A stretch of DNA of 39,201 bases. Source: Gammaproteobacteria bacterium (GTDB lineage Bacteria; Pseudomonadota; Gammaproteobacteria; UBA6429; Thiohalophilaceae). Of this stretch, positions 1 through 12,118 are shown piece after piece. Position numbers and translations under genes: made by a program. The DNA is taken from NCBI GenBank assembly GCA_030617815.1, contig JAUWUS010000012.1, positions 1-39,201 on the forward strand, in the 5' to 3' direction. The notes below the pieces were generated by a model. It saw only the letters and a program-made list of their open reading frames with translations. It searched no databases and had not been told where the DNA came from. How positions within the stretch are numbered: position 1 is the first letter of the stretch; each line of letters starts with the position of its first letter.

Positions 1-32
1 AAAAAAAAGCGGAAATATTTTCATATTTCCGC
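1..32 (-). terminator. Rho-independent terminator of the Rrf2-family gene
   Basis: A perfect 10-bp stem (GCGGAAATAT at 9-18 with ATATTTCCGC at 23-32) closes a 4-nt loop. Read on the minus strand it is followed at once by eight T residues (8 down to 1). It lies about 55 bp beyond the stop codon of the minus-strand regulator gene. In the plus direction no U-run follows, so it should act mainly on minus-strand transcripts. Confidence 0.8.
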
Positions 33-88
33 AATTTAAATGGGGGCTTATTCGTTAAAACGAATTAAAATTTTTTAAATAAAGATTT

Positions 89-502
89 TTAGTCTTTATT
101 TGTCGCTTCCGGTGTTTTGTAAATGCTATGTAATTCAGCAAGACTAATGCTGTCAAGATAACCACCGATTAGCTCAAGTAAACTCAACCAGAGAGTATGG
201 CTGTCTGATTTGTTAAATTCAGGTTCCATGCTTGTTTCTTTAACCGTTGCTTTATCAACTGCTTTTACAATTGCAGCGATTGAAATGTCGGTTAATGGTT
301 TGTTTAGCATATAACCGCCACCTGGGCCGCGTGCGCTTTTAACAATGTCACATTTTCGTAATAAAGCGAAAATTTGCTCCAGGTACGAAATCGAAATATT
401 TTGAGCCTGCGCGAGGTGCGCTAAAGTCACAGGTTCATCGGCGTGAGTTGAAAGTTCTAAAACTGTCTTAATGGCATAATGTGCGCGTGATGATAATTTC
501 AT
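89..502 (-). CDS. Rrf2-family transcriptional regulator lacking the usual cluster cysteines
   Basis: A 137-residue DNA-binding regulator of the Rrf2 superfamily (the family of IscR, NsrR and CymR). It opens with the family's KLSSRAHYAI-type start and a winged helix-turn-helix at about residues 1-65, including the SISYLEQIFALLRK recognition helix and the wing motif RGPGGGY at 58-64. The dimerisation helix and C-terminal part (LWLSLLELIGGYLDSISLAEL) resemble IscR. In IscR and NsrR three cysteines just after the wing region bind an Fe-S cluster; here that stretch (about 85-105) has none, and the only cysteine is C51 in the helix-turn-helix. It may therefore work without a cluster or sense something else. 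It is transcribed alone, divergently from the Lon-like protease gene across 277 bp, and ends in a strong terminator. The target genes cannot be told from the sequence. Confidence 0.88.
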   Translation of the reverse strand: MKLSSRAHYAIKTVLELSTHADEPVTLAHLAQAQNISISYLEQIFALLRKCDIVKSARGPGGGYMLNKPLTDISIAAIVKAVDKATVKETSMEPEFNKSDSHTLWLSLLELIGGYLDSISLAELHSIYKTPEATNKD

Positions 503-632
503 AGTAGAGCCCCTTTTCTTGTTTTTCCCTGTTTTTGTGCTTTATTAAAGTTAAAACTTAAAAGACACATTGAAATACGGTTTATGTGAACAATGGTTAA
601 TTCTAAGTGAATTACTCGGGTATAGCCATTTT

Positions 633-644
633 TGTTACGTAACA
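633..644. promoter_or_regulatory. Perfect 12-bp palindrome, candidate operator
   Basis: TGTTACGTAACA is a perfect dyad with T/A-rich flanks. It sits in the 277-bp divergent gap between the Rrf2-family gene and the Lon-like protease gene, about 130 bp upstream of each start codon. It could be an operator for either gene or an autoregulatory site. No promoter hexamers could be placed with confidence in relation to it. The rest of the gap (503-779) shows no gene; a TATAAT-like hexamer lies at 733-738 without a good -35. Confidence 0.3.
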
Positions 645-779
645 TAAAAATCATGAAGGTTATCAAGTAATTATGATGCCTTCGTCCCTGAACATACATC
701 GGTATTTACTCGCAGCATACACTGCTTTAATTTATAATATAACTCATTTTCATTAAATAACACATAAAAACTGTAGACT

Positions 780-3227
780 ATGACACAATCTAAAGCATTT
801 AGTGCCCTGCAATTACGATCATTTTGCGACCAGGCTGAATTTAATTTCAAAACCACGGATGATATCCCTGATTTTGAAGGGATGGTCGGACAAGAACGGG
901 CTATAGAAGCGCTTTCTTTTGCCGTTGAAATCGACAAACCGGGTTATAACATGTACCTCATGGGTTCGGCCGGTTTAGGTAAGCACACGTTATTAAAACG
1001 TTTTTTAGATAAAGCGTCCTCAGAACAAAGTCCAGCAGACGACTGGTGTTATATTTTTAATTTTGATGAACCACAAAAACCTAAAGCAATTAGTTTACCT
1101 GCAGGACAAGGCCATAAGTTTCGTGATGATATGCGTCAACTGGTTCGGGATCTACAAACAGCCATCCCCAATGCCTTTGAAAGCGAGCTTTATTATACCC
1201 GGCAACAAGAAGTTCGTGATTCTCTAAAAGAACAAACTCATGCAGCATTTAATTCTTTAGCAGAAGAAGCAAAACAACATGATTTTATTTTTTTACGCAG
1301 TGATGAGGAATTAACTTTTGCAGCTGCTAAAGATGGAAAAAGATTAAGTGCTGAAGAGTATGAAAAATTATCGGCTAAAGATAAACAACACTTTGAAAAG
1401 TTTATTACGGTATTAGAAGAACGGCTGAATAATTTAATTCGATTACGTACTCAGTGGCAAAGAGAGAGCAGAGAAAAAACCACCGAAATAAATCGTGAAG
1501 TAGGTATGTTTGCAGCTGCACATCTTATTGATGAAGTGAAAGTAAAGTATAAAGAAATTAAAGCAATAACAACTTATTTAATGGATCTGCAAGAAGACGT
1601 TATTAATGGACTTTACGAATTTCGTGAGCAGGAACATGCTGATTTTTCTTTTGATAATGGTGAAGATTTTTTTGGCTTTCAGCATTATGAAATAAACCTG
1701 ATTGTTGATAATAAAAACAATGATGGTGCGCCTGTTGTTTATGAAAATAACCCAATGCACCAGAATTTATTAGGGCGTGTTGAATACATATCGCAAATGG
1801 GGACACAGGTAACTGATTATCGTTTTATTAAATCGGGTGCATTACATAAAGCGAATGGCGGTTACCTTATTATCGACGCGCAAAAATTGTTAACTCAACC
1901 CAATTCATGGGAAGCATTAAAAAGAGTATTGGTTGCAAAAAAAATCAATATTGAATCTTTAGGAGATTCCGCTGGTTTAGTTAATACCGTTTCTCTGGAG
2001 CCAGAACCAATACCGTTTGACACAAAAGTTGTACTCGTTGGTAGTCGCGCCTTGTATTATTTATTAGAAGAAGGTGATTCTGCATTTTCTGAGCTTTTTA
2101 AAGTAGAAGTGGATTTTTCTGAAAGTATTGACTGCTCAAAAGAATCATTAAATGAGTATGCACAAGTGATAGCGACCCTGGTCAGAAAAAATAAATTGGC
2201 TGCTTTTGAGCAAGATGCTGTTAAACGTGTCATTGAATATGGCATGCGTCAAATTGAAGACACGACACAATTATCAACACACATGCGCAGCATGCTGGAT
2301 CTTTTAATTGAAGCAGATTTTTGGGCAAAAAAAGAAAATAAATCAAAGGCCACAATTCAAACAGTGCAAAGAAAAGATGTGCAAACGGCGATTGATAAAC
2401 AAATTTATCGTGCAGATCGTAGTCGTGATCAAATTTATGATGAAATCAATAAAGGTATTATTCGTATTAATATTAGTGGTGAAAAAGTTGCCACAGTAAA
2501 TGGTTTGTTTGTTATTGAAACAGGGCGGCTTGAATTTGCACAGCCAGCGCGTATAACGGCTAATGTTCGTATTGGTGATGGTGATATTATCGATATAGAA
2601 CGTGAGGTTGAGCTCGGTGGTGCATTGCATTCAAAAGGTGTGTTGATCCTGTCTTCTTATTTGGGTGCTCATTACGCAACGAATAAACCATTTTCATTAT
2701 CAGCCAGCCTGGTTTTTGAACAGTCTTACGGCAGTGTTGATGGCGATAGTGCAACAGTCGGTGAACTCTGTGCATTAGTCTCTGCTATTTCAAAAGTACC
2801 GGTAAAACAATCATTTGCCATTACCGGTTCTGCAGATCAACACGGCAATGTTCAGGCTGTTGGTGGAATTAATGAAAAAATTGAAGGTTTTTTTGATATA
2901 TGTAAACAACAGGGTTTAACCGGTAAGCAAGGCGTTATTTTCCCTACAACGAATATTCCGCATTTAATATTAAGAGATGATGTGGTTGATGCAATTGAAA
3001 ATAAGCAGTTTGTTTTATATCCCATCAATAATGTAAATGAAGCTATCTCATTATTAACCGGATTGCCTGCTGGAGAACGTAATGCAGAAGGTGAGTTCCC
3101 TGAAAATTCAGTGAATCATAAAGTTGAACAACGTTTACTTGAAATGGCTAAATTAAAACATGAAGATCATCATAAAGATGAACATGATGATCATGAAGAT
3201 GATAAAGAATCAAAAAAGGATAAATGA
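780..3227 (+). CDS. Lon-like AAA+ ATP-dependent protease (LonB/YcbZ type)
   Basis: An 815-residue protein with an N-terminal AAA+ module and a C-terminal Lon protease domain. The Walker A loop GSAGLGKHT is at residues 62-70. A long inserted helical region (about 150-290) separates it from the rest of the ATPase core, as in the bacterial LonB/YcbZ branch rather than LonA, and there is no LonA substrate-binding N-domain. The proteolytic Ser-Lys dyad is visible: Ser657 in DGDSATV and Lys700 in INEKIEG. Their spacing of 43 matches that of E. coli Lon (S679/K722). The last 30 residues form a His/Asp/Lys-rich tail (HEDHHKDEHDDHEDD) that could bind metal or be disordered. bolA follows after 9 bp, suggesting cotranscription. 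No convincing Shine-Dalgarno precedes the ATG. Likely role: ATP-driven degradation of unfolded or regulatory proteins in the cytoplasm. Confidence 0.88.
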   Translation: MTQSKAFSALQLRSFCDQAEFNFKTTDDIPDFEGMVGQERAIEALSFAVEIDKPGYNMYLMGSAGLGKHTLLKRFLDKASSEQSPADDWCYIFNFDEPQKPKAISLPAGQGHKFRDDMRQLVRDLQTAIPNAFESELYYTRQQEVRDSLKEQTHAAFNSLAEEAKQHDFIFLRSDEELTFAAAKDGKRLSAEEYEKLSAKDKQHFEKFITVLEERLNNLIRLRTQWQRESREKTTEINREVGMFAAAHLIDEVKVKYKEIKAITTYLMDLQEDVINGLYEFREQEHADFSFDNGEDFFGFQHYEINLIVDNKNNDGAPVVYENNPMHQNLLGRVEYISQMGTQVTDYRFIKSGALHKANGGYLIIDAQKLLTQPNSWEALKRVLVAKKINIESLGDSAGLVNTVSLEPEPIPFDTKVVLVGSRALYYLLEEGDSAFSELFKVEVDFSESIDCSKESLNEYAQVIATLVRKNKLAAFEQDAVKRVIEYGMRQIEDTTQLSTHMRSMLDLLIEADFWAKKENKSKATIQTVQRKDVQTAIDKQIYRADRSRDQIYDEINKGIIRINISGEKVATVNGLFVIETGRLEFAQPARITANVRIGDGDIIDIEREVELGGALHSKGVLILSSYLGAHYATNKPFSLSASLVFEQSYGSVDGDSATVGELCALVSAISKVPVKQSFAITGSADQHGNVQAVGGINEKIEGFFDICKQQGLTGKQGVIFPTTNIPHLILRDDVVDAIENKQFVLYPINNVNEAISLLTGLPAGERNAEGEFPENSVNHKVEQRLLEMAKLKHEDHHKDEHDDHEDDKESKKDK

Positions 3228-3236
3228 GTAATTGAT

Positions 3237-3548
3237 ATGACAGTACAAGCAACAATCGAAAAAAAATTGGCTGATGATTTTAACCCATTACATTTAGAAG
3301 TTATAAACGAAAGCAGTAATCATAACGTGCCTGAAGGTTCGGAGTCTCACTTTAAAGTTGTTGTAGTTTCTCCTGCTTTTGCAGGAAAAAATTTACTCGC
3401 CCGTCATAGAATGATTAATGCAACCTTAGCGGATGAATTAAAAAATGCCATTCATGCTTTAGCGATTCATACATATACAGAAGAAGAGTGGCAGGAGACA
3501 TCAGGTGGAGCGCCGATGTCACCACCTTGTTTAGGTGGTGGGAAGTAA
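3237..3548 (+). CDS. bolA: BolA family protein
   Basis: A 103-residue BolA-like protein. BolA proteins pair with monothiol glutaredoxins to bind [2Fe-2S] clusters and influence iron-sulfur homeostasis, stress morphology and transcription. The family core is clear: LHLEVINES at about 18-26, then [25 protein letters not shown], and the helix around [22 protein letters not shown]. The C-terminal stretch (about 90-103, [14 protein letters not shown]) is short, Gly/Pro-rich and carries one cysteine. The gene starts 9 bp after the Lon-like protease stop and is probably in the same transcript. It is the last core gene before the cassette array. Family assignment is secure; which BolA paralogue it is cannot be decided from one gene. 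Confidence 0.88.
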
Positions 3549-3730
3549 AGTTACTGACTGTTATCGACCCATTGCTGCCGTTCATTCTTCTCTTTAAATA
3601 ATGATTTCATATCCCTAAAGCAGACATTAAAAATAAGACTGTTCATCTCTTGCATTCTGCAACTAGTGGGCCCGATTTGCTTTTATTGATATCAGGACCC
3701 CTTTACGGTAAGTTGTTGATATGAAAAAAG
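3549..3730. other. Non-coding left boundary of the cassette array
   Basis: No gene is visible here. The stretch contains CGACCCATTGCTGCCGTT (3565-3582) and AAAGCAGACATT (3617-3628). Similar elements recur at the right edge of the array (CGACCGCTAATGGCCGTT at 9460-9477 and CGACATTCAG at 9481-9490). They look like parts of one family of intergenic repeat. Two TTGATAT motifs lie near 3690 and 3717. No tyrosine recombinase gene is found on either strand where an integron integrase would normally lie. Confidence 0.45.
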
Positions 3731-3788
3731 TTTACAAAACAATATTAGAGTTATTTAATAATGATATACGGACCCACGGGTCCGTATA
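3731..3788 (+). promoter_or_regulatory. Candidate cassette promoter (Pc-like) with a start-site hairpin
   Basis: TTTACA (3731-3736, 5 of 6 matches to TTGACA) and TTTAAT (3754-3759, 5 of 6 matches to TATAAT) are separated by exactly 17 bp. The expected start falls at about 3766, inside an 11-bp perfect stem (3765-3775 with 3778-3788) closed by only two bases. It points into the first cassette and sits where an integron's Pc promoter would be. The hairpin might stabilise the 5' end or belong to an attI site. Confidence 0.5.
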
Positions 3789-3795
3789 ATCATCT

Positions 3796-3802
3796 GTTAG
3801 GT
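3796..3802 (+). other. Orphan core half-site (attI-like or R' only) at the array start
   Basis: GTTAGGT matches GTTRRRY and pairs with the R'' box ACCTAAC at 4185-4191, so it is the true left end of the first cassette. No R'' box lies upstream of it, so it is not a complete attC. It is either the remnant of an attI site whose integrase gene has gone or the right half of a decayed attC. Confidence 0.6.
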
Positions 3803-3812
3803 TTACAAAAAC

Positions 3813-4190
3813 ATGCATGGTTATCAAACAAAAATTGCATTAAGCTGGAGCATATTAATACTAGCTTTATTACATTGGTTATTTCTTGAGTCCGACTATT
3901 TTATTTACAAAATAGTAATAATAATTGCAGTTGCAATAAGAGCAAATTCTAGAGAAAGCGATAGAATTGAAAAAATAATTAAAAGTAATTCGTTGTCTGT
4001 AAAGTTATCTTTTATTTATGTATTTGGGTGGTTTCTATATGTTATGTACATATATTTCCAAAACCCTAATAGCTCCGAGCAAATATTAAATAGCATGCAA
4101 TTAACTCTGTTTTTAATACCAATATTCAGTATATTTATTATTAATGATATTAAATGGTATTTTAGGTGTAATGAAAATCAAAAAACCTAA
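3813..4190 (+). CDS. Cassette gene: small polytopic membrane protein, unknown function
   Basis: I do not recognise this 125-residue protein. It is strongly hydrophobic, with likely membrane segments at about 7-25, 31-43, 62-81 and 95-115. A charged loop lies at about 44-60 (RANSRESDRIEKIIKSN), and the C-terminus is short and polar. It is probably an inner-membrane protein with three or four helices. The ATG starts 10 bp after the core site, leaving an A-rich leader with no clear Shine-Dalgarno. The TAA stop lies within the R'' box of the following attC, which is typical of tightly packed cassettes. As first cassette it is the one most likely to be transcribed from the candidate promoter at 3731-3759. 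Confidence 0.7.
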   Translation: MHGYQTKIALSWSILILALLHWLFLESDYFIYKIVIIIAVAIRANSRESDRIEKIIKSNSLSVKLSFIYVFGWFLYVMYIYFQNPNSSEQILNSMQLTLFLIPIFSIFIINDIKWYFRCNENQKT

Positions 4191-4286
4191 CAAGTGCATC
4201 AAGAACATTCGCTTACCGCTCATTGGGACTTTTAAAAGAGGCGCTCTCGCTTCTCTTTTAAAAGCCCCTTATGCTAATCGTTAGGC
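4185..4286 (+). other. attC site 1 (102 bp)
   Basis: R'' is ACCTAAC at 4185-4191, followed by AAG; R' is GTTAGGC at 4280-4286. The centre has extended complementarity (ACTTTTAAAAGAG with CTCTTTTAAAAG), giving the long hairpin used for single-strand recombination. Its last 14 bases before the final GC (4271-4284) recur exactly at 11722-11735. Confidence 0.9.
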
Positions 4287-4296
4287 TTACAAAAAA

Positions 4297-5016
4297 ATGA
4301 ATCCGGAAGAACTTAATAAGATAATTACAGAAGCCCTTAACCAAGGTTCCAGTATACCGTGGTGGACATATTTGCTGTTTATAGTGCTACCATTTATTGG
4401 CAGTTATATTGGGGCATACTCGAAGAAAAAGGGTGAAAATCTCGCAACAAAAGAGGATGTTAATGTAATTACTCAAAAAATTGAGTCAGTTAAAGCTGAA
4501 ATACTTTTAACTAAAGAATTAGAAAAGCAATACCTCAATAAGAAGCTTGACCTGCTAATTTCCTTTTTTGATCATATTTCCGAATTTCACTATGAGTTAA
4601 TGGCGGTTAATTTCGGAGAATTTCCAAGCGATGAAGGTAAGTCACTTTATGAATATCAAGTAGCTTTTTATAAAGCAGTTGCAGAAATCACTAAAAGTTA
4701 TCAACGTTTGGTTGTGTTTATTACTCCTGACTCTCAAATACTTCATCATGCGGAGCAATTAACTACAGCAGTAATTTCATCAAGGAAAATTTTGAAGAAA
4801 CACTTTTTTAAAATAAAAACAACTGCCGCACAAGAAAGAGAGGCATACCTTTCTGGTGATACGAGTAAATTTAAAACTGCGGCAAAGGAAGCAGATGAGG
4901 CAAGCTCAATTTATTGGGGTGAAATGAAACCAACCGTAGAGGTATTCAAAGAGTACTTCCAGAAGTTTATAACTGATTTAAATGAATATGTTAAACCTGA
5001 AAGTAAAAAAGCCTAA
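4297..5016 (+). CDS. Cassette gene: membrane-anchored helical protein, unknown function
   Basis: A 239-residue protein with a single N-terminal membrane segment at about 22-41 (WWTYLLFIVLPFIGSYIGAY), followed by KKKGENLATKEDV at 43-55. The rest is a long mostly helical region rich in Lys and Glu, probably facing the cytoplasm. The segment reading (K)KGENLATKEDV is one I associate with a widespread family of uncharacterised bacterial proteins; its function is not known to me. The start is 10 bp after the core site with an A-rich leader. The stop codon lies inside the R'' box of attC 2. A structural or effector role at the membrane is possible, but nothing in the sequence shows an active site. 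Confidence 0.75.
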   Translation: MNPEELNKIITEALNQGSSIPWWTYLLFIVLPFIGSYIGAYSKKKGENLATKEDVNVITQKIESVKAEILLTKELEKQYLNKKLDLLISFFDHISEFHYELMAVNFGEFPSDEGKSLYEYQVAFYKAVAEITKSYQRLVVFITPDSQILHHAEQLTTAVISSRKILKKHFFKIKTTAAQEREAYLSGDTSKFKTAAKEADEASSIYWGEMKPTVEVFKEYFQKFITDLNEYVKPESKKA

Positions 5017-5091
5017 CAAGAAAATCAAGTCATTCGCTTCGCTCATTGGGACGCGCAAAAAGCGGCGCGCCCCTTATTGAAAACGTTAGAT
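5011..5091 (+). other. attC site 2 (81 bp)
   Basis: R'' is GCCTAAC (5011-5017) and R' is GTTAGAT (5085-5091). The centre contains GGGACGCGC and GCGGCGCGCCCC, which can pair. Over 81 positions it differs from attC 8 (8885-8965) at only eight. Confidence 0.92.
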
Positions 5092-5099
5092 TTATAAAA

Positions 5100-5474
5100 A
5101 TGAAAATAGCACCTATTCTCATATTGTTACTCTTCTCAGCGTCATTGCAGGCTGAATCATTATGTTTTAGCCCAGTTAAAGAGAAACAAGGCGATAAAGA
5201 TACTAAACGATCTTTCTGGCAGTCATTTGATTATAAAGTACAGGTAGATGATGGGCCGGTTATTACTCCGTCAGAAACAAAAAGCACTAAATACGAAATA
5301 TCAACAGAAAGACCACTTGTAAAAATAATACTAGGAAAGAAAGTTATTGAATCTTTCCATGTAAAAAACAAATGGTTAAAAGAAGGCAGAAACTGTATTT
5401 ACTTTAAAAATATTTACGAAACTTGGTCAGTTGTTGAAAAATGGCAGGCAGAGAAATTATGTTCGTGCAAATAA
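5100..5474 (+). CDS. Cassette gene: small secreted protein, unknown function
   Basis: The start was placed at 5100 because the reading frame upstream lies within attC 2, while MKIAPILILLLFSASLQA from this ATG forms a good Sec signal peptide with cleavage after about residue 18. The mature part of roughly 105 residues is Lys-rich, contains YKVQVDDGPVITPSE and three or four cysteines (including one CSC near the end), and looks like a small beta-rich periplasmic domain. I do not recognise the family. The leader between the core site and ATG is 8 bp, too short for a normal Shine-Dalgarno. Possible roles such as an immunity or inhibitor protein are only speculation. Confidence 0.72.
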   Translation: MKIAPILILLLFSASLQAESLCFSPVKEKQGDKDTKRSFWQSFDYKVQVDDGPVITPSETKSTKYEISTERPLVKIILGKKVIESFHVKNKWLKEGRNCIYFKNIYETWSVVEKWQAEKLCSCK

Positions 5475-5475
5475 A

Positions 5476-5554
5476 ATCTAACAAGGCACTTCAGTTGACC
5501 ACCAAAAGCGGCGCTTTGCTTGCTTTTGGAGTCAACTGAGCTTAATCGTTAGAT
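5476..5554 (+). other. attC site 3 (79 bp)
   Basis: R'' is ATCTAAC (5476-5482) and R' is GTTAGAT (5548-5554). The inner arms CAGTTGACCACCAAAAGC and GCTTTTGGAGTCAACTG pair with small bulges, giving the expected hairpin with extrahelical bases. Confidence 0.92.
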
Positions 5555-5568
5555 GTAAATAGAAAAAT

Positions 5569-5970
5569 ATGGAGATACTCTCACTTTTAATTCCAGCAAT
5601 GCTAGTAACTTTATTTTTCTTCTTTTTATTTGTCGGTAAATTAAGAGGTAAAATAGAAAAAGAATCGAATGCATTATTGGGCTTTCAGTGTGGTGGAATG
5701 TTTGGGTGGACAAGTTTATGTACTCCGTTAGTTAGACATACTATGTATGATGATTATTTAATCATTGGATATGGTAGTACACGGCATATTATTAAGTATG
5801 AAGATATAGATTTTGTTTCTAAATCACTAAGCCTATTAACTGAGAATCTGAGGTATCATCATAATAATCAAGAGTTACCTAAAAGAATTATAATATATAC
5901 AAACAATGCTTCTGACATACTTTCAATACTAAAGCTAAAGCATGTAGATATTAAATCAAAAGCATTATGA
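5569..5970 (+). CDS. Cassette gene: membrane-anchored protein with PH-like segment, unknown
   Basis: A 133-residue protein with one hydrophobic segment at about 4-23 (LSLLIPAMLVTLFFFFLFV). A soluble part contains YDDYLIIGYGSTRHIIKYEDI, which has the look of a bacterial PH-like (bPH) beta domain where a small membrane protein reads out its own level. That domain assignment is a guess from pattern only. The codon use is very A/T-rich. The gene begins 14 bp after the core site. Between the stop and attC 4 there are about 50 bp without features, so this cassette is less tightly packed than its neighbours. Confidence 0.68.
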   Translation: MEILSLLIPAMLVTLFFFFLFVGKLRGKIEKESNALLGFQCGGMFGWTSLCTPLVRHTMYDDYLIIGYGSTRHIIKYEDIDFVSKSLSLLTENLRYHHNNQELPKRIIIYTNNASDILSILKLKHVDIKSKAL

Positions 5971-6019
5971 CCCTAGTGGCTTGATGTGATATTGGATATA
6001 GTGAGTTTATGAGAAAAAC

Positions 6020-6118
6020 ATCTAACAAGGCACTCAAGACGGAAAAACAAAACTGTCACACCTTTTGCTACTGCAAAAGCTGCGCCAGTTTTGTTTTCCG
6101 CTTAATGCGACGTTATGT
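6020..6118 (+). other. attC site 4 (99 bp)
   Basis: R'' is ATCTAAC (6020-6026) and R' is GTTATGT (6112-6118), which departs from GTTRRRY at one base. The arms GACGGAAAAACAAAACTG and CAGTTTTGTTTTCCGC form a long stem. The unusual R' is explained by the next cassette, whose own R'' is ACATAAC. Confidence 0.9.
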
Positions 6119-6176
6119 GTATTAAAAACCACAGTTACCAATTACAAGCAATGCTAATAAAATCACGAGAATAAAT

Positions 6177-6482
6177 ATGCCGCTTTGTCCAAGTTGTAAA
6201 AAATGGAGTCCATTTATTTTTTCAAATAGAGAAAGAATAGAATGCGATAAATGTGGTGCAATTTATCGTGAAAATAAAAAATTTAATTATTCGCTTAGAG
6301 TGTTGCTCTTTTCAATGTGTTTTTTTATTCCTTTTATACTGACTTATTTACTTTCAGATAAAATTCTTATTGGAATTATTACAACCATTATAGTTATACT
6401 TGGTCATGATATTGGCATCAAATATGAAATATTAGAAAAAAAAGAAAAAGCTAATAACCCAGTTCCGCCATTTAATAATTAA
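6177..6482 (+). CDS. Cassette gene: zinc-ribbon plus two-helix membrane protein, unknown
   Basis: A 101-residue protein. It begins with a four-cysteine zinc ribbon: CPSC at residues 4-7 and CDKC at 23-26. Two hydrophobic helices follow at about 38-55 and 60-80, then a Lys-rich tail. This layout (cytoplasmic zinc ribbon, then membrane hairpin) occurs in many small uncharacterised proteins and gives no specific function. The ATG lies 58 bp inside the cassette, the longest leader of the array, and AATAAAT precedes it rather than a Shine-Dalgarno. The stop is followed 20 bp later by attC 5. Confidence 0.72.
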   Translation: MPLCPSCKKWSPFIFSNRERIECDKCGAIYRENKKFNYSLRVLLFSMCFFIPFILTYLLSDKILIGIITTIIVILGHDIGIKYEILEKKEKANNPVPPFNN

Positions 6483-6502
6483 AACTATATAATGAAATTA
6501 AC

Positions 6503-6562
6503 ACATAACAAGTCATTCAAACCGACGCCGAAAAGCGGCGCGGTTTAACTCAATCGTTAGAT
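6503..6562 (+). other. attC site 5 (60 bp, short type)
   Basis: R'' is ACATAAC (6503-6509) and R' is GTTAGAT (6556-6562). The centre CCGACGCCGAAAAGCGGCGCGG is compact. R'' breaks the consensus but is the exact complement of the GTTATGT at the start of the same cassette. It is close in length and sequence to attC 9. Confidence 0.9.
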
Positions 6563-6578
6563 ACAACCAAGGTATCAT

Positions 6579-7244
6579 ATGGACCTCAATAATAAAGCCA
6601 ACGAAAAAGTAAATGTAGAATGCAGAGAGTGTAAAAGAAGTACAAAACATTTAATCCTTGCATCTGCTGATTTATCGGATAGTGAAGTTATAGGTCATGA
6701 TTATGAAATATACTGGTCATCTAGTTACCAAATAGTTCAGTGCATGGGTTGTGAAACAATATCATTTAGACGTTGTAGTGAAAGCTCAGAAGACAATCCC
6801 ATTCAAATTGGTCCTAACGAGTGGGAGGAAAATATAAATGAAGATCTATACCCAAATCCAAATGAAGGCCGAGAACCATTATCAGACTCTAATATCTTGC
6901 CACCAAAAATTGAACGTATATATGAAGAAACAATAACTTCTCTTAATAGTCGCCAACCTGTTCTATGCGGCATTGGTATTCGCGCTTTGATTGAAACTAT
7001 TTCTAAAGAAAAAAATGCGAGTAGTAGAGACTTATTTGGAAAAATAAATGACCTTGTTTCAATGGGAGTTCTTACACAAGAAGGTGCTGATATTTTACAT
7101 AAATTAAGAACACTTGGTAATGCAGCAGCACACGAGGTTAAACCACATTCAGAACAACAATTAGGTCTAGCTATGGATGTTGTCGAACATCTATTAAACG
7201 GTGTATATATATTGCCATACCACGCAAAACGTACTTTTGACTAA
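6579..7244 (+). CDS. Cassette gene: DUF4145 domain protein with zinc ribbon
   Basis: A 221-residue protein. The N-terminal part carries two CxxC pairs (C15/C18 and C55/C58) that probably bind zinc. The C-terminal half, about 115-205, fits the DUF4145 family: CGIGIRALIETISKEK, then LHKLRTLGNAAAHEVKPHS, a helical arrangement with conserved R, N and H. DUF4145 occurs as small stand-alone proteins and fused to restriction-type nucleases, so a role in defence or nucleic acid metabolism is plausible but unproven. There is no membrane segment, so it is probably cytoplasmic. The gene starts 16 bp after the core site, with AAGGT as a possible ribosome-binding site. Family call is fairly sure, function unknown. 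Confidence 0.82.
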   Translation: MDLNNKANEKVNVECRECKRSTKHLILASADLSDSEVIGHDYEIYWSSSYQIVQCMGCETISFRRCSESSEDNPIQIGPNEWEENINEDLYPNPNEGREPLSDSNILPPKIERIYEETITSLNSRQPVLCGIGIRALIETISKEKNASSRDLFGKINDLVSMGVLTQEGADILHKLRTLGNAAAHEVKPHSEQQLGLAMDVVEHLLNGVYILPYHAKRTFD

Positions 7245-7256
7245 TGCGAAATATGT

Positions 7257-7349
7257 ATCTAACAAGACGTTCAAAACCGCTATGCACGGCATGGCTCGGA
7301 TTTTTAAAAAGCAGCGCTTTTTAAAAACCGTTTAACTATAACGTTAGCT
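7257..7349 (+). other. attC site 6 (93 bp)
   Basis: R'' is ATCTAAC (7257-7263), extended to GTATCTAAC, which is the exact complement of GTTAGATAC at the cassette start. R' is GTTAGCT (7343-7349). The arms TTTTTAAAAAGC and GCTTTTTAAAAA form the central stem. Confidence 0.9.
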
Positions 7350-7368
7350 CTATACAAATAGGTTTAGT

Positions 7369-8343
7369 ATGAATTTACATTTCCTTAAACTTTTTTCCAC
7401 TACAGTATTACTCTTTCTTTGTATGAGTTTTGCGCAAGCGGCAGACATAAATAAACCAATTATTGCAGTTGCCCCAGATAAAGAGTTATGCAAAGGGAGT
7501 GATGGTTTTATACCAATACCTAAAAAATCAAAAAAAATATCATTTAAGTATCTCATGGCTGTTATTGATAAAAAACTTGGGAAAAAGTGTAAATTAAACG
7601 GCATATACTTAGGTGGTCGAATTGAAGATGGTGAACTAGAACATATAAAACTAGCCTACAAACTATTAAATAACAGAAGAAATCCTACAACTATTGGTGC
7701 CAATACAATATGGCTGAATAGCCCCGGTGGGCTAATCCATGAGGCAATGAAAATAGGAGATTTTATTGCTGAAAAGAGAATGAAAGCAATTATAACGCTC
7801 AATGGAAAATGTTTTAGCTCATGTGTTTTTATATATGCCGCAGCTAAAACTCGTAGCGGCATTGGCGATGTTGGTATTCACCGTCCATTTGCTAATGAAA
7901 TTTCAGCAGAGTCACTTAGTTATTCTAAATATCTTTCACAATACAATAAGATCACTCCTGTTTTAAAAGATTACTTTGCAAAATATGGTGTCTCACCTTC
8001 TATAGTTGATGTTATGAATATTACGCCATCTGATAATATTAAAATTCTTACCCGCGAAGAAAGAAAAGGCTTTGGTTTGGGTTTTCAAAATATCGCTGCA
8101 AAAGAACACAATAAGGCAAGAACAATTCAGCTTTGTGGAAAAAAATACTATGACCTGCATCTACGGTTTCATGCAACCATTAAAAGTTGCCGGAATAAAA
8201 TGAAACTCAATACATTCTCTGCATCAGATGCCGGTAATCCATGTTGGGAAATCGCACGAATTGCTATGCCGCAATATATCGAGGAATTTGATAAATGCAA
8301 AACATTAAAAGAGATAAATCAAAAGACAAGAGCTAACAAGTAA
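7369..8343 (+). CDS. Cassette gene: periplasmic ClpP/SppA-like putative serine protease
   Basis: A 324-residue protein with a Sec signal peptide (residues 1-24, ending SFAQA). The body has a ClpP/crotonase-type fold signature: WLNSPGG for the oxyanion and turn region, then CFSSC at 148-152 with a likely nucleophile Ser150 or Ser151, and GDVGIHRPF with His171. This order is that of the periplasmic ClpP-like proteins related to COG3904. The C-terminal region contains further cysteines that may form disulfides. The last codons (RANK) come from a remnant of an attC R'' box (AGCTAAC at 8331-8337), so the original C-terminus or stop may have changed. It starts 19 bp after the core site with AGGTTT as a weak Shine-Dalgarno. 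It is large for a cassette protein. Protease activity is inferred, not shown. Confidence 0.78.
   Translation: MNLHFLKLFSTTVLLFLCMSFAQAADINKPIIAVAPDKELCKGSDGFIPIPKKSKKISFKYLMAVIDKKLGKKCKLNGIYLGGRIEDGELEHIKLAYKLLNNRRNPTTIGANTIWLNSPGGLIHEAMKIGDFIAEKRMKAIITLNGKCFSSCVFIYAAAKTRSGIGDVGIHRPFANEISAESLSYSKYLSQYNKITPVLKDYFAKYGVSPSIVDVMNITPSDNIKILTREERKGFGLGFQNIAAKEHNKARTIQLCGKKYYDLHLRFHATIKSCRNKMKLNTFSASDAGNPCWEIARIAMPQYIEEFDKCKTLKEINQKTRANK
8331..8340 (+). other. attC remnant (R'' only), site 7
   Basis: AGCTAACAAG is the exact complement of the GTTAGCT at the start of this cassette and carries the TAACAAG found in every other attC of the array. No hairpin or R' follows: the sequence runs directly into another gene's leader. 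The right part of this attC and the start of the next cassette are missing. Confidence 0.75.
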
Positions 8344-8386
8344 ATTAACATGGACAAAATAAAGACTGATTTTACGGAGAGAAATT

Positions 8387-8881
8387 ATGGCTGACCCACA
8401 TTGGACTGGTTATGTAGGCATGGTAAGTGGTATAGCTGGAGCTGTACTTAGTATAATAAGCTATAGAAAAAGTAGTAGCATTAAAAATCTAGATTTAAGG
8501 CTCGAACTTCGTAAAGAAATTAATAACACACATACAAACCTTGCTCATTTAACAGGCTTATTACCTCATGCTAACAATTCAAGGAGAGCAGTTGCAGCTG
8601 CTACCGGTAATTTTCATTCAGGAAATATGCAAAGATGGAATAATGAATTAGAAATAGACAATGAGCAACTAACATCTATTGCTGAAAAAGCACCAGATTT
8701 AGAAGCAAGCTATGATTCTCTTAATACAAAAGAACTTGAATCTAAACTTATCGAAGTTCATAGCTTACAAAGCGAAATTAATACATTAGTTAATAAATAC
8801 CAATCAGCAATTGATTCAGATGATTCTGAAAGAAATCATATACGTGAAGATATTCGGGCACGAAATATACCTCATGACTAA
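8387..8881 (+). CDS. Cassette gene: anchored coiled-coil protein, unknown function
   Basis: A 164-residue protein with a short hydrophobic segment at about 9-25 (YVGMVSGIAGAVLSIIS). A mostly helical, Glu/Asn-rich body follows, likely coiled coil at about 36-55 and 95-140. I do not recognise the family. It is the only array gene with a good Shine-Dalgarno (ACGGAGAG about 8 bp before the ATG). It lacks the usual core site before it because attC 7 and the start of this cassette are deleted; the R'' of its own attC (ACCTAAC) predicts that a GTTAGGT once stood upstream. Layout resembles the anchored helical protein at 4297-5016, without obvious sequence identity. Confidence 0.7.
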   Translation: MADPHWTGYVGMVSGIAGAVLSIISYRKSSSIKNLDLRLELRKEINNTHTNLAHLTGLLPHANNSRRAVAAATGNFHSGNMQRWNNELEIDNEQLTSIAEKAPDLEASYDSLNTKELESKLIEVHSLQSEINTLVNKYQSAIDSDDSERNHIREDIRARNIPHD

Positions 8882-8884
8882 AAC

Positions 8885-8965
8885 ACCTAACAAGAAAATT
8901 AAGTCATTCGCTTCGCACATTGGGACGCGCCAAAAGCGGCGCGCCCCTTATTAAAGACGTTATAC
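8885..8965 (+). other. attC site 8 (81 bp)
   Basis: R'' is ACCTAAC (8885-8891) and R' is GTTATAC (8959-8965). It is nearly the same as attC 2, including GGGACGCGC and GCGGCGCGCCCC. Its R' departs from GTTRRRY but matches the R'' of the next cassette. Confidence 0.9.
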
Positions 8966-8977
8966 CCATTAAATACA

Positions 8978-9412
8978 ATGAGAAAAATACTAGCCATAAT
9001 AATTGCACCACTCATGCCAGCCATATTAATAATTGGTTTACCTATTATATTTTCCCAATCCTGGCCATTCAACGATACTGATTACAAAATAATTATCTTT
9101 GTCTCTGTCATTGTTGGTTATTTTAGTTTGGCTATTATTGGCATACCCATCGTCTACTGGTTAACTAAAATGGGTAAGGTTAACTTTATAAATCTATCAC
9201 TATCTGGCGCAATTGCCGGAGCTGTGGTGTTTTCATTATTCTCAATAATTCTTGGCGCATCCTTAGATTCTACTACCTCACTGAATCTCGGTAGTATCAT
9301 ATGGGGTGCAGCTTTGGGTTTAAGTGTTGCATTAACATATAGTGCTATCTCGGGTATAACAAGTCGCTCAACAACGACGCCAAAAAGCGGCGCGGTTGAT
9401 ACTAATCGTTGA
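8978..9412 (+). CDS. Cassette gene: polytopic membrane protein whose end is coded by attC
   Basis: A 144-residue hydrophobic protein with probable membrane segments at about 5-24, 33-60, 72-95 and 100-125. Glycine-rich stretches (GAIAGAVVFSLFSIILGAS and IIWGAALGLSVALTY) suggest closely packed helices. I do not recognise the family. Translation runs through the R'' box and hairpin of attC 9, so the last 17 or so residues (SRSTTTPKSGAVDTNR) are encoded by the recombination site, and the stop codon lies in its R' box. Loss or exchange of that site would change the C-terminus. The leader is 12 bp, A-rich, without a Shine-Dalgarno. Confidence 0.68.
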   Translation: MRKILAIIIAPLMPAILIIGLPIIFSQSWPFNDTDYKIIIFVSVIVGYFSLAIIGIPIVYWLTKMGKVNFINLSLSGAIAGAVVFSLFSIILGASLDSTTSLNLGSIIWGAALGLSVALTYSAISGITSRSTTTPKSGAVDTNR

Positions 9413-9414
9413 AC
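9354..9414 (+). other. attC site 9 (61 bp, short type), right end of array
   Basis: R'' is GTATAAC (9354-9360), within GGGTATAAC, the exact 9-base complement of GTTATACCC at the cassette start. R' is GTTGAAC (9408-9414). It overlaps the end of the preceding gene. No further cassette with a matching GTTCAAC box is seen downstream. Confidence 0.88.
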
Positions 9415-9545
9415 GTCTGCTTTTGATGTTTGCCAGGGGTAATTATCTTATTTGATGAACGACCGCTAATGGCCGTTAACCGACATTCAGGATTAATCAA
9501 TATTTAAAACCTCAATCCCTCCAACCCCTTCTTATTTTACGCACC
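9415..9545. other. Non-coding right boundary of the array
   Basis: No gene seen. It holds CGACCGCTAATGGCCGTT (9460-9477) and CGACATTCAG (9481-9490), which resemble elements on the left side of the array near 3565-3628. The stop codon of the minus-strand heme protein gene follows directly. Confidence 0.4.
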
Positions 9546-11162
9546 CTAGCGCGCCTTGCCCTCGAGTCCCACCACCACAGTGCGCGCACGTAAATGTGAG
9601 AACACACCGGCGGGTACCTCCATTGATACCGTCTTCACTTTCTTCAGGCTATGTGCATCATAGATCACGAGTCGGTCACCATCATATCCAGCTATTCGGT
9701 CACCGCCAACTGAGGAGCTGACATAGAGGTAATCACCTCGTGCCGTGTATTCCGGAAAGTGTGAATGACCGAGTGTGCCTGAGACTGTTAGGGTCTTGGC
9801 AACTTTAAGAGTATTCTTGTCTATGAATTGAATCTTGTTCGCATTCGGACCGGTACCAACGATGTCGACCACAATATAAGGGGCTTTGGGATGAGCAGCT
9901 GGTGATTCAGTGGGGCCAAGGACAGGAATGCGCTTGACTACCTCGAAGGTATCCATGTCAAAGACGGTTATTTCATACGACTTGCAGGACTGTGAACCGA
10001 TATTGGTACCAATACCCAGCAGTCGGCCTTGCGATCTCACCACGGCACCCGAACCGAGGTGCGGCTGACACCCGGCAGGAATCTTTTTAACAATACGTCT
10101 TTTGGCCAGATCGATGACAGCATTGATATTGTCATCGTAAGAGGAAACCACGACGTAACGACCATCCGGTGAGAGAAAAGCATCATGCAGATGCCTGCCT
10201 ACGTTAGTTATTTTTGTAATTGGCATGTCAGGTTTATTCAGATCTATAATCCAAACCTGGCCGGCTTGTTCGAGTGCGATCACGAAGACATCTGCAAAGG
10301 GAGTGCTGGTGATCATGCCCGAGTCAGCTTCGACCATTTTGCCATCCGGGTTGATGCCACGCAGCTCTATCAACTTGAGTGGCTTCAAAGTTAAGGCATC
10401 CAGAATCACCGCAGTATTGGGTACGAAGGAACCCGCGGCCAGGTATCGCCCGTCGCGTGATACCGCGAGTGACGTGCCATTCAATCCAGCTCGTATCTTG
10501 CGAACAATCTTTAATGAGTAAAGATCAATTTTCAGGATATAGCCGGCATCATCCCGAACATAGGCCCAGCGTTCCTGCTTGGGATGAAAGTCCATTAGGT
10601 GCGGGGCAAAGTCGGTGGCTACCTCACCAATTTTTTTGTTGGTTCTGCCATCGAAGAACACGACCTTGGCTTTATCTCCGGCAGCGAAGCGTCCGCGTGC
10701 CATGATGGCCATTAGATCGTCGAGGTTCTTGATTTTGTAAGTTGGTTTGCTTGGCAGGGTTGATTCATCGGCTACGAGTACTTCAAGTGAATCTTGTATG
10801 TCGTTCAATCCCCAAGACATGGATTGCTTCGGGCGCTGCGCGATAAGCGAGGCTAGCAGATTCATTTTCCTGGTCGATAATTTGCCGGGCCACGTCGGAT
10901 GTTGCGGCATCAAGGTTGTGGCTCCTCCTTCGCGGATCCTGGATTTGATCTGCGCCTGGGTGAGCTCAGTTTGATCGCTGTTCAATGCTGGCCCAATGTA
11001 TCCGCCGCGATCCGCCCCGTGACATACCGCGCAATGATCAGCATACAGCCGCTCGGCCTCATCAAAATTTTCAGCCCAGGAAGCAGACGGCATTCCCAGT
11101 AGTGTTGTTATACATAAGATAGTTGCTATGACATGCTTCGTGTGATTTGCTGATCTATTCAT
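9546..11162 (-). CDS. Periplasmic c-type/d1-type heme protein (NirS/NirN-like)
   Basis: A 538-residue exported protein. Residues 1-30 form a signal peptide (cleavage near SWA/EN). A cytochrome c domain follows with CAVCH at 44-48 and a likely axial Met85 in TTLMPQHP. From about residue 135 the sequence is a beta-propeller of the cytochrome d1 family, with repeated blades such as FHPKQERWAYVRDDAG, LSPDGRYVVVSSYDD and DGRYLAAGS, and histidines (FAPHLMDFHP, GRHLHDAFL, GHSHF) that could ligate or serve heme d1. NirS is the cd1 nitrite reductase and NirN a related dihydro-heme d1 dehydrogenase; the sequence alone does not decide. No other nir gene is in the window, so heme d1 would have to be made elsewhere. 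Codon use is clearly more GC-rich than in neighbours and the strand is opposite to the array, suggesting transfer. A 17-bp palindrome lies about 40 bp upstream. Confidence 0.85.
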   Translation of the reverse strand: MNRSANHTKHVIATILCITTLLGMPSASWAENFDEAERLYADHCAVCHGADRGGYIGPALNSDQTELTQAQIKSRIREGGATTLMPQHPTWPGKLSTRKMNLLASLIAQRPKQSMSWGLNDIQDSLEVLVADESTLPSKPTYKIKNLDDLMAIMARGRFAAGDKAKVVFFDGRTNKKIGEVATDFAPHLMDFHPKQERWAYVRDDAGYILKIDLYSLKIVRKIRAGLNGTSLAVSRDGRYLAAGSFVPNTAVILDALTLKPLKLIELRGINPDGKMVEADSGMITSTPFADVFVIALEQAGQVWIIDLNKPDMPITKITNVGRHLHDAFLSPDGRYVVVSSYDDNINAVIDLAKRRIVKKIPAGCQPHLGSGAVVRSQGRLLGIGTNIGSQSCKSYEITVFDMDTFEVVKRIPVLGPTESPAAHPKAPYIVVDIVGTGPNANKIQFIDKNTLKVAKTLTVSGTLGHSHFPEYTARGDYLYVSSSVGGDRIAGYDGDRLVIYDAHSLKKVKTVSMEVPAGVFSHLRARTVVVGLEGKAR

Positions 11163-11199
11163 TGGTACACTCTCCTATGTTTATTACAAAGTAACAAAC

Positions 11200-11216
11200 T
11201 TGATTGCGCTAATCAA
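11200..11216. promoter_or_regulatory. 17-bp dyad upstream of the heme protein gene
   Basis: TTGATTGCGCTAATCAA has TTGAT and ATCAA ends like a CRP/FNR-family site, but the half-sites are separated by 7 bases rather than the usual 4. It lies 38-54 bp upstream of the heme protein start codon. It could be an operator for a redox or nitrogen-oxide regulator, or chance. The remaining sequence to 11521 holds no recognised gene. Confidence 0.3.
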
Positions 11217-11521
11217 TTGCTCGCTGATACCTGTTTTCATATTTTTATAGTTGTTTATCTACAGGGTATGTTGATTTCTGTTCCTCATACTGTGAATGCC
11301 TTCAAAGATTGGCGTAGCAATATTATAAGAAATTCTTTGGTAAGTTAGACATAACAGAAATTAAAAGGGCTGGAGAGGATAAATATTGATTAATCCTAAA
11401 TGTCCGCAACTCAAGGCGGCCATTCGATAAAGTACTTGAAGGAATATTGAGCCTGTTCACTTTTACTTATTTTAGGTGCTAATAAGTGAAACTAATTAGA
11501 ATGAGTATAAGCGAATCCACT

Positions 11522-11620
11522 ATGTTAACTTTTGGACCAGTTCCATCTCGTCGTCTGGGACGAAGCCTGGGTATTAATAACATCCCCCCAAAATACTACC
11601 TTTTTATTATGGAGCACTAG
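11522..11620 (+). pseudogene. 5' stump of a radical SAM protein gene (COG0731-like)
   Basis: The 24 codons from the ATG read MLTFGPVPSRRLGRSLGINN-IPPK, the characteristic start of a radical SAM family (COG0731-like Fe-S oxidoreductases) in which the CxxxCxxC cluster motif should follow at once. Instead the match stops after the IPPK codons (about 11593), the frame ends after eight unrelated codons, and no cysteine motif appears. Only the extreme 5' end of the gene is left, joined to the tail of an unrelated membrane-protein gene. It cannot code for a working enzyme. The deletion or insertion end therefore lies at about 11594. Confidence 0.75.
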
Positions 11621-11793
11621 CAATTGGCGCAATACTCGGTCTTGTTGTTACATACTTGATTTTTAAAAAACATAAAAACAAATGGCTATGGCTCTCCACG
11701 CCAATAAACATTACAGTTCTAATGCTAATCGTTAGCGTCCGCTTTCAGTACACTTGCAAGAAAGTTATATTTAATACGAATGGCTGCTACTAG
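11594..11793 (+). pseudogene. 3' fragment of a membrane-protein gene, likely a cassette remnant
   Basis: In the frame that passes through 11581, an open stretch reads FYYGALAIGAILGLVVTYLI, followed by a Lys-rich loop and WLWLSTPINITVLMLIVSV, then ends at a TAG at 11791. It has two membrane-like helices but no start codon, and it begins where the radical SAM stump ends. It runs through ATGCTAATCGTTAG (11722-11735), which equals the 3' end of attC 1. This suggests the tail of a former cassette gene, as seen also in the gene at 8978-9412. No R'' box or hairpin is left beside it. Confidence 0.5.
11722..11737 (+). other. Isolated attC 3' end
   Basis: ATGCTAATCGTTAG is identical over 14 bases to 4271-4284, the right end of attC 1, followed by CG. 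No matching R'' or stem lies within 100 bp upstream. It indicates that cassette material once extended, or was copied, to this side of the heme protein gene. Confidence 0.5.
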
Positions 11794-11815
11794 CCGTTTA
11801 CAGTCATCAATTTTT

Positions 11816-12118
11816 TCAAATATTTTTGTCGAGAAATCTTTCGTTAATAGAAGGAAGGGGATTTTTATTGATTTGAGGATTCTCTGGCATTTGTAAATGA
11901 AATCCTTGTTGTTCAATACTTTTGATCACTTCGGCGCCTGTCCCTCTAGCCATTTTCTTTTCAGGCGTTATTGTTAATGACATGACTTTTTCGGTTTCGC
12001 CTAATACATTTTTCAGTTCGTCAGGTAAATCAGATAATGGCGTTTCCGTTGGGATAAAAACATAGGTTTCATCTTTTTTTAGACTTTTATAAATGGTGCA
12101 TTCTATTTTTTTATTCAT
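11816..12118 (-). CDS. ycgL: YcgL domain protein
   Basis: A 100-residue protein of the YcgL family, small soluble proteins of gammaproteobacteria with no established biochemical function. The family pattern is visible: ECTIYKSLKKDETYVFIP near the start, LPDELKNVLGETEKVMSL in the middle, and the IEQQGFHLQMPENP end. About 20 residues beyond the usual domain end are Asn/Lys-rich and of doubtful meaning. The start at 12118 was chosen over an upstream in-frame ATG because it matches the family N-terminus and gives an ATGA overlap with the stop of the preceding gene, pointing to translational coupling. It is the second gene of a two-gene minus-strand unit. Confidence 0.85.
   Translation of the reverse strand: MNKKIECTIYKSLKKDETYVFIPTETPLSDLPDELKNVLGETEKVMSLTITPEKKMARGTGAEVIKSIEQQGFHLQMPENPQINKNPLPSINERFLDKNI

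Follow-up and report, generated by a model that had tools for sequence, protein, structure and literature searches.

A probable attI site parted from its integrase gene heads a cassette array in a gammaproteobacterial draft genome

We find that positions 3731-3802 of a gammaproteobacterial window are, very probably, the attI site of an integron integrase clade that we call type A, left behind or moved in without intI, and the cassette entry point of a CALIN. The window, meaning the whole 39,201-nucleotide stretch analysed, is contig C98; the draft genome to which it belongs has 130 contigs, totals 2.34 Mb and is 93% complete. CALINs, which have at least two attC sites and no integrase nearby, are described as commoner than complete integrons (PMC9668308). 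They are usually studied through attC, since attI sites show little conservation and are difficult to recognise (PMC3607928).

A first-pass annotation of this DNA had noted a pair of promoter-like hexamers, a hairpin and a GTTAGGT core without R'', and had suggested that they could represent an old attI with its Pc promoter after loss of intI. Every one of these letters is confirmed: TTTACA at 3731-3736, a 17-nt spacer, TTTAAT at 3754-3759, the hairpin, and GTTAGGT at 3796-3802. Together with two elements further upstream, the hairpin and core make up the following site.

3652 to 3681, plus strand: upstream block of type-A attI, TTGCATTCTGCAAC..GGGCCCGATTTGC, from alignment with type-A sites
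3742 to 3748, plus strand: ATATTAG box, common to most type-A attI sites
3765 to 3788, plus strand: attI palindrome TATACGGACCC-AC-GGGTCCGTATA, 11 perfect pairs with a 2-nt loop, conserved in intI-linked attI sites
3796 to 3802, plus strand: attI core GTTAGGT, which fits GTTRRRY, heads the first cassette and holds the putative crossover point between G and TT

We found no R'' partner upstream of 3796, nor the R''-L''..L'-R' inverted homology of an attC; with no R'', we rejected an attC remnant as the identity of the core. What stands here is a GTTRRRY core that heads the first cassette without R'' (the first attC begins at 4186), as in an attI. The hairpin stretch folds as single-stranded DNA with z = -4.5, and perfect stems of at least 11 bp occur on average 0.15 times per dinucleotide-shuffled copy of the whole window. 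Despite that low expectation the hairpin alone is unremarkable, because three other stems of 12-14 bp lie elsewhere in the window. It gains meaning because it is conserved at the same place in other genomes.

A 78-bp search of 144 relatives recovered the hairpin with the core in several genomes, and an integrase search then showed linkage to intI. In the alignment the sites share a TTGCA..TTGCAA block, a TATTAG box, a CGGACC..GGTCCG palindrome, a short spacer and GTTRRRY. This layout lies directly upstream of, and divergent from, an intact intI in three genomes. In G015 (JAOUNS010000003.1) the site is about 200 bp upstream of the gene on the opposite strand and heads an array with attC sites; in G021 and G026 the same layout is found at the array head adjoining intI. 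The window site is 86% identical to the G015 site over 44 nt, and the three integrases, with 72-79% identity, group in a single clade (support 100/100). The proposal of an attI without intI is thus supported: intact integrons of these three genomes have this site as their attI, so that the comparison with integrase-positive relatives is positive, and no remnant of intI occurs in the window region. The chromosomal integrons of G015, G021, G026 and a Candidatus Thiodiazotropha (L233), all from uncultured Gammaproteobacteria, have the same block, box, palindrome, spacer and core with cassettes after them, and differ from the window in that intI is present.

The site is not confined to these genomes. 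With a sequence model named R1, built without base pairs because a consensus fold of the alignment gave none, we detected it in 15 of 40 family genomes. One genome with a type-A site, G008, is essentially complete and has no integron integrase match. Scanning named genomes for the exact pattern gave ten loci in gammaproteobacterial metagenome-assembled genomes, several of them labelled Chromatiales or Candidatus Thiodiazotropha. An intI lies upstream of the site in three of the ten (L233, L236 and L234, the last being G015 again). The other seven have no type-A intI in the sequence examined, some stretches of which are short, and L230 has a distant integrase-like match only. The same pattern scan of viral contigs returned nothing.

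These comparisons bear on whether the cassettes could have entered a chance GTT in intergenic DNA, with the hairpin unrelated to their arrival. For IntI1, rare insertion at secondary sites needs little beyond the core. About 150 bp of the layout, however, is common to intI-linked attI sites in several genera, which contradicts such an event and makes it very improbable here.

We found no piece, remnant or pseudogene of intI in window positions 1-12000, the stretch 3549-3795 included. Adjacency to intI is seen for the same site in G015, G021, G026, L233 and L236 and is lacking in the window; we therefore file the site as an orphan attI and not as part of a complete integron. The genome has a single integron integrase, on contig C38, whose array runs on into C80 through an exact 141-bp contig overlap. 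This resident enzyme falls in a different clade, with 45-47% identity to the type-A integrases, and its attI is built of different repeats. Since the draft is 93% complete, a type-A intI may lie elsewhere in the genome. The array behind the orphan site has eight complete attCs, which we located by pattern and folding; automatic folding of the attC alignment gave no structure.

4186 to 4286, plus strand: attC 1, 95% identical to a C38 attC
5012 to 5091, plus strand: attC 2
5477 to 5554, plus strand: attC 3, 94% identical to a C80 attC
6021 to 6118, plus strand: attC 4
6504 to 6562, plus strand: attC 5
7258 to 7349, plus strand: attC 6
8886 to 8965, plus strand: attC 7, 87% identical to a C80 attC
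9355 to 9414, plus strand: attC 8, the last of the array, with a core (GTTGAAC) that runs into the right boundary repeat

With eight attCs here and intI only on C38, the array is a CALIN. Its attCs reach 95% identity with those of C38 and C80 and at most 73% with those of the G015 and G021 arrays. Because of the former figure, we consider that the window cassettes and those of the resident integron were drawn from one pool. Given that the genome has another integron integrase, and that its attCs are so similar to those of the window, capture by the C38 enzyme acting in trans is plausible on sequence grounds. Within the array, positions 8332-8386 hold an R''-like CTAACAAG after a 324-aa Clp-protease-like cassette gene, and because the rest of an attC is missing there, two cassettes look fused.

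The genome carries further orphan attI-like heads, of three types, on other contigs. A type-A site is also present on C115 and on C20, and a further one on C92. The array head on C17 (L028, about 330-485) matches the attI of the intI in G033 (72% over 210 nt) and has a different palindrome. The array head on C5 (L027, about 9950-10060) duplicates the resident C38 attI (85% over 118 nt) and lacks intI. We found no intI fragment in the examined stretches of C5, C17, C115 and C20.

We then considered the palindrome itself across intI-linked upstream regions. In 14-15 of 75-76 such regions a stem of at least 6 bp ends 5-13 nt ahead of a GTTR core, against 1.9 in shuffles. Reversed sequences were a moderately clean control (5 of 75 at 6 bp or more), and decoy-triplet and gap controls were therefore added: decoy triplets in place of GTT gave 1-4, from fewer sites, and neighbouring gap windows gave 0-1. 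A second maximum lies 29-36 nt from the core (11 regions) and makes plain that palindromes abound in these regions, with tandem ones among them. The palindrome sequences differ between integrase clades (TATACGGCGAGCCGTATA, AGACGACATGTCGTCT and TAGGAATAAATTCCTA, for example). This enrichment near unrelated integrase genes suggests that the palindrome is an overlooked component of attI, most likely a clade-specific part of the integrase recognition region. Two described sites can be set beside it. The Shewanella attI, with GCGCATGCGC before ACTAATAAAATGTT (PMC9892861), fits the pattern. The attI1 of class 1 integrons, whose core is GTTAGGC, fits it weakly, with GGGC-AGTC-GCCC nine nt before the core; this palindrome has only 4 bp, attI1 has two direct repeats (PMC4792948), and we noted no sequence similarity to the window site. 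We found no description of a core-adjacent attI palindrome in the literature that we searched, which left out most subscription papers, and we make no claim of priority. As a separate observation, three integron integrases have an N-terminal extension of about 140 aa (L072 in G004:C59, L161 in G016:C26 and L180 in G002:C268). Upstream of them, too, palindromes adjoin a core-like GTT, and L072 has a tandem pair.

The hairpin could instead be chiefly an element of transcription or translation, such as a 5'-UTR hairpin, a repressor operator or a terminator shielding intI, within the attI region and outside the recombination site. Regulator sites are present in the attI region of class 1 integrons (PMC8876359), and in our sequences both arms are conserved, as for a dimer-binding site, with weak covariation of the pairs. 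The minus strand also passes a simple terminator scan, but its T-rich tail is not conserved in the intI-linked copies. Moreover, next to unrelated integrases there are palindromes of unrelated sequence at 5-13 nt from the core, a pattern easier to reconcile with a core-associated site than with one regulator. We consider the regulatory reading unlikely as the chief role. Two specific forms of hairpin were rejected in their own right. Against a Rho-independent terminator, the minus strand has a tail that is weakly T-rich in the window and not in intI-linked copies; against an RNA-style hairpin, covariation is weak (one of 12 pairs has changes in both members, and the score is reached in 28 of 500 shuffles).

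A Pc promoter is generally expected of an attI, and the first-pass annotation had proposed the hexamer pair as one. This part of its claim found no support. The pair scores 10/12, and sites of at least 10/12 arise in about 10% of shuffles of 3549-3802, so that the hexamers are at chance level. Neither the -10 nor the -35 is conserved in other copies of the site. A stricter promoter scan of 3500-9600 returned 24 sites, against 26.8 in shuffles, and the noted pair was not among them.

To place the array in its genomic setting, we compared the locus among relatives. In the closest of these, G004, whose BolA is 93% identical, ycgL and its neighbours come immediately after bolA, and everything from 3549 to about 11815 of the window is absent; in G001, G003, G005 and G007 other genes follow bolA and there is no attI. 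Since the neighbours of bolA differ in this way, the spot is variable, and the array either entered it or was lost from it. A left region present without cassettes, which would have spoken against an attI, was not found, as G004 lacks the whole segment. For the same reason intI may have been lost at this locus, or attI may have arrived already without it. The segment is bordered by repeats.

3552 to 3632, plus strand: left boundary repeat TGACTGTTATCGACCC..CTAAAGCAGACATTAAA, in the place expected for intI; type-A sites of other genomes also have a similar repeat end next to them
9409 to 9490, minus strand: right boundary repeat, opposite in orientation to the left copy; over 82 bp it shares 96% identity with the right-hand end of the C17 array
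11690 to 11807, no strand assigned: second, degraded cassette array end (..GCTAATCGTTAGC, 11690-11740) and outer repeat (11745-11807) at the far end of the inserted segment
C17 (L028) 147 to 225 and 3727 to 3808, and C115 (L029) about 6578 to 6626: further copies of the repeat

The left and right flanks carry the same repeat in opposite orientations and in diverged form, and the C17 array has an equivalent pair. This rare repeat of about 80 bp lies almost only at the ends of cassette arrays. We counted seven copies of its exact end motif in the genome, and all but one are on the three array contigs C17, C98 and C115. Across the 40 family genomes the motif falls within 3 kb of 8 of 21 type-A sites, where about 0.1 would be expected from about 90 motif copies in 118 Mb; in G015 it lies about 50 bp past the intI stop. 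Between the right repeat of the array and the second, degraded array end, in the segment missing from G004, there is a gene for a cytochrome d1-type protein (9546-11162).

The distribution of the repeat suggests defined ends for the integron units of this family, and possible movement of intI-free versions as non-autonomous units. The strong form of this idea is that attI, array and flanks arrived as one inverted-repeat-bounded unit, already without intI, and were never part of an in situ integron history. We regard it as slightly short of an even proposition. The direct junction of bolA and ycgL in G004 would follow from it, as would the inverted copies at both ends of the window and C17 units and the repeat ends close to type-A sites in other genomes. 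Of the marks of a transposon-like unit, inverted boundary repeats and a segment-free locus in G004 are seen, but the repeat copies are diverged, we recognised no target-site duplication and found no transposase, and the segment could also have been lost independently from G004 or been inserted and then rearranged. Another locus resembles loss of intI in place: at L237 (JAHXHN010000007.1; type-A site 3688-3721) the upstream flank matches the leader of the L233 intI, and intI is absent. The MITE-flanked class 1 integron of Acinetobacter johnsonii likewise places a cassette-bearing segment between copies of one repeat (PMC3934969). There the repeats are identical 439-bp MITEs, whereas the window has short, diverged repeats with no intI between them.

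Returning to the preferred reading, an orphan attI of the type-A clade, we infer a course of recombination from the position of the site, its sequence family, its intI linkage in relatives, the absence of intI in the window, and the attC identity with the resident integron. An IntI of the type-A clade would bind the attI and exchange strands between the G and the TT of the core (3796), and each new cassette would be placed next to the hairpin. The palindrome would be part of the clade-specific recognition region, in a role comparable to the direct repeats of attI1. Present activity would be possible only through the resident C38 integrase of the other clade, acting in trans; otherwise the array would be frozen.

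An orphan attI at the head of a CALIN is already known from Shewanella prophage M16-3 (PMC9892861), where a Shewanella-type attI heads a CALIN without its own integrase and has a palindrome (GCGCATGCGC) before the core, as in the window. In that prophage, however, a complete integron is headed by this attI type too, while the resident integrase of our genome has a different attI, and the sequences are unrelated. Our case adds the type-A attI with its palindrome, the occurrence of more than one type of orphan attI within a single genome, and a setting bounded by repeats. We offer only tentatively, as a rather doubtful proposal, the wider picture in which intI-free attI sites with cassettes circulate in the family as inverted-repeat-bounded, non-autonomous units that are filled in trans by an unrelated integrase of the host, with the palindrome as a clade-specific component of attI that has been overlooked.

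An attI type that can be recognised in the absence of its integrase allows an integron without intI to be told apart from cassettes scattered by recombination, and shows how rows of genes can persist, and perhaps move, without their enzyme. It also offers a direct test of whether an integrase may serve an attI that belongs to another clade, together with a sequence model by which further sites can be sought. Should the palindrome prove common to attI sites in general, the customary view of attI as non-palindromic would need correction.
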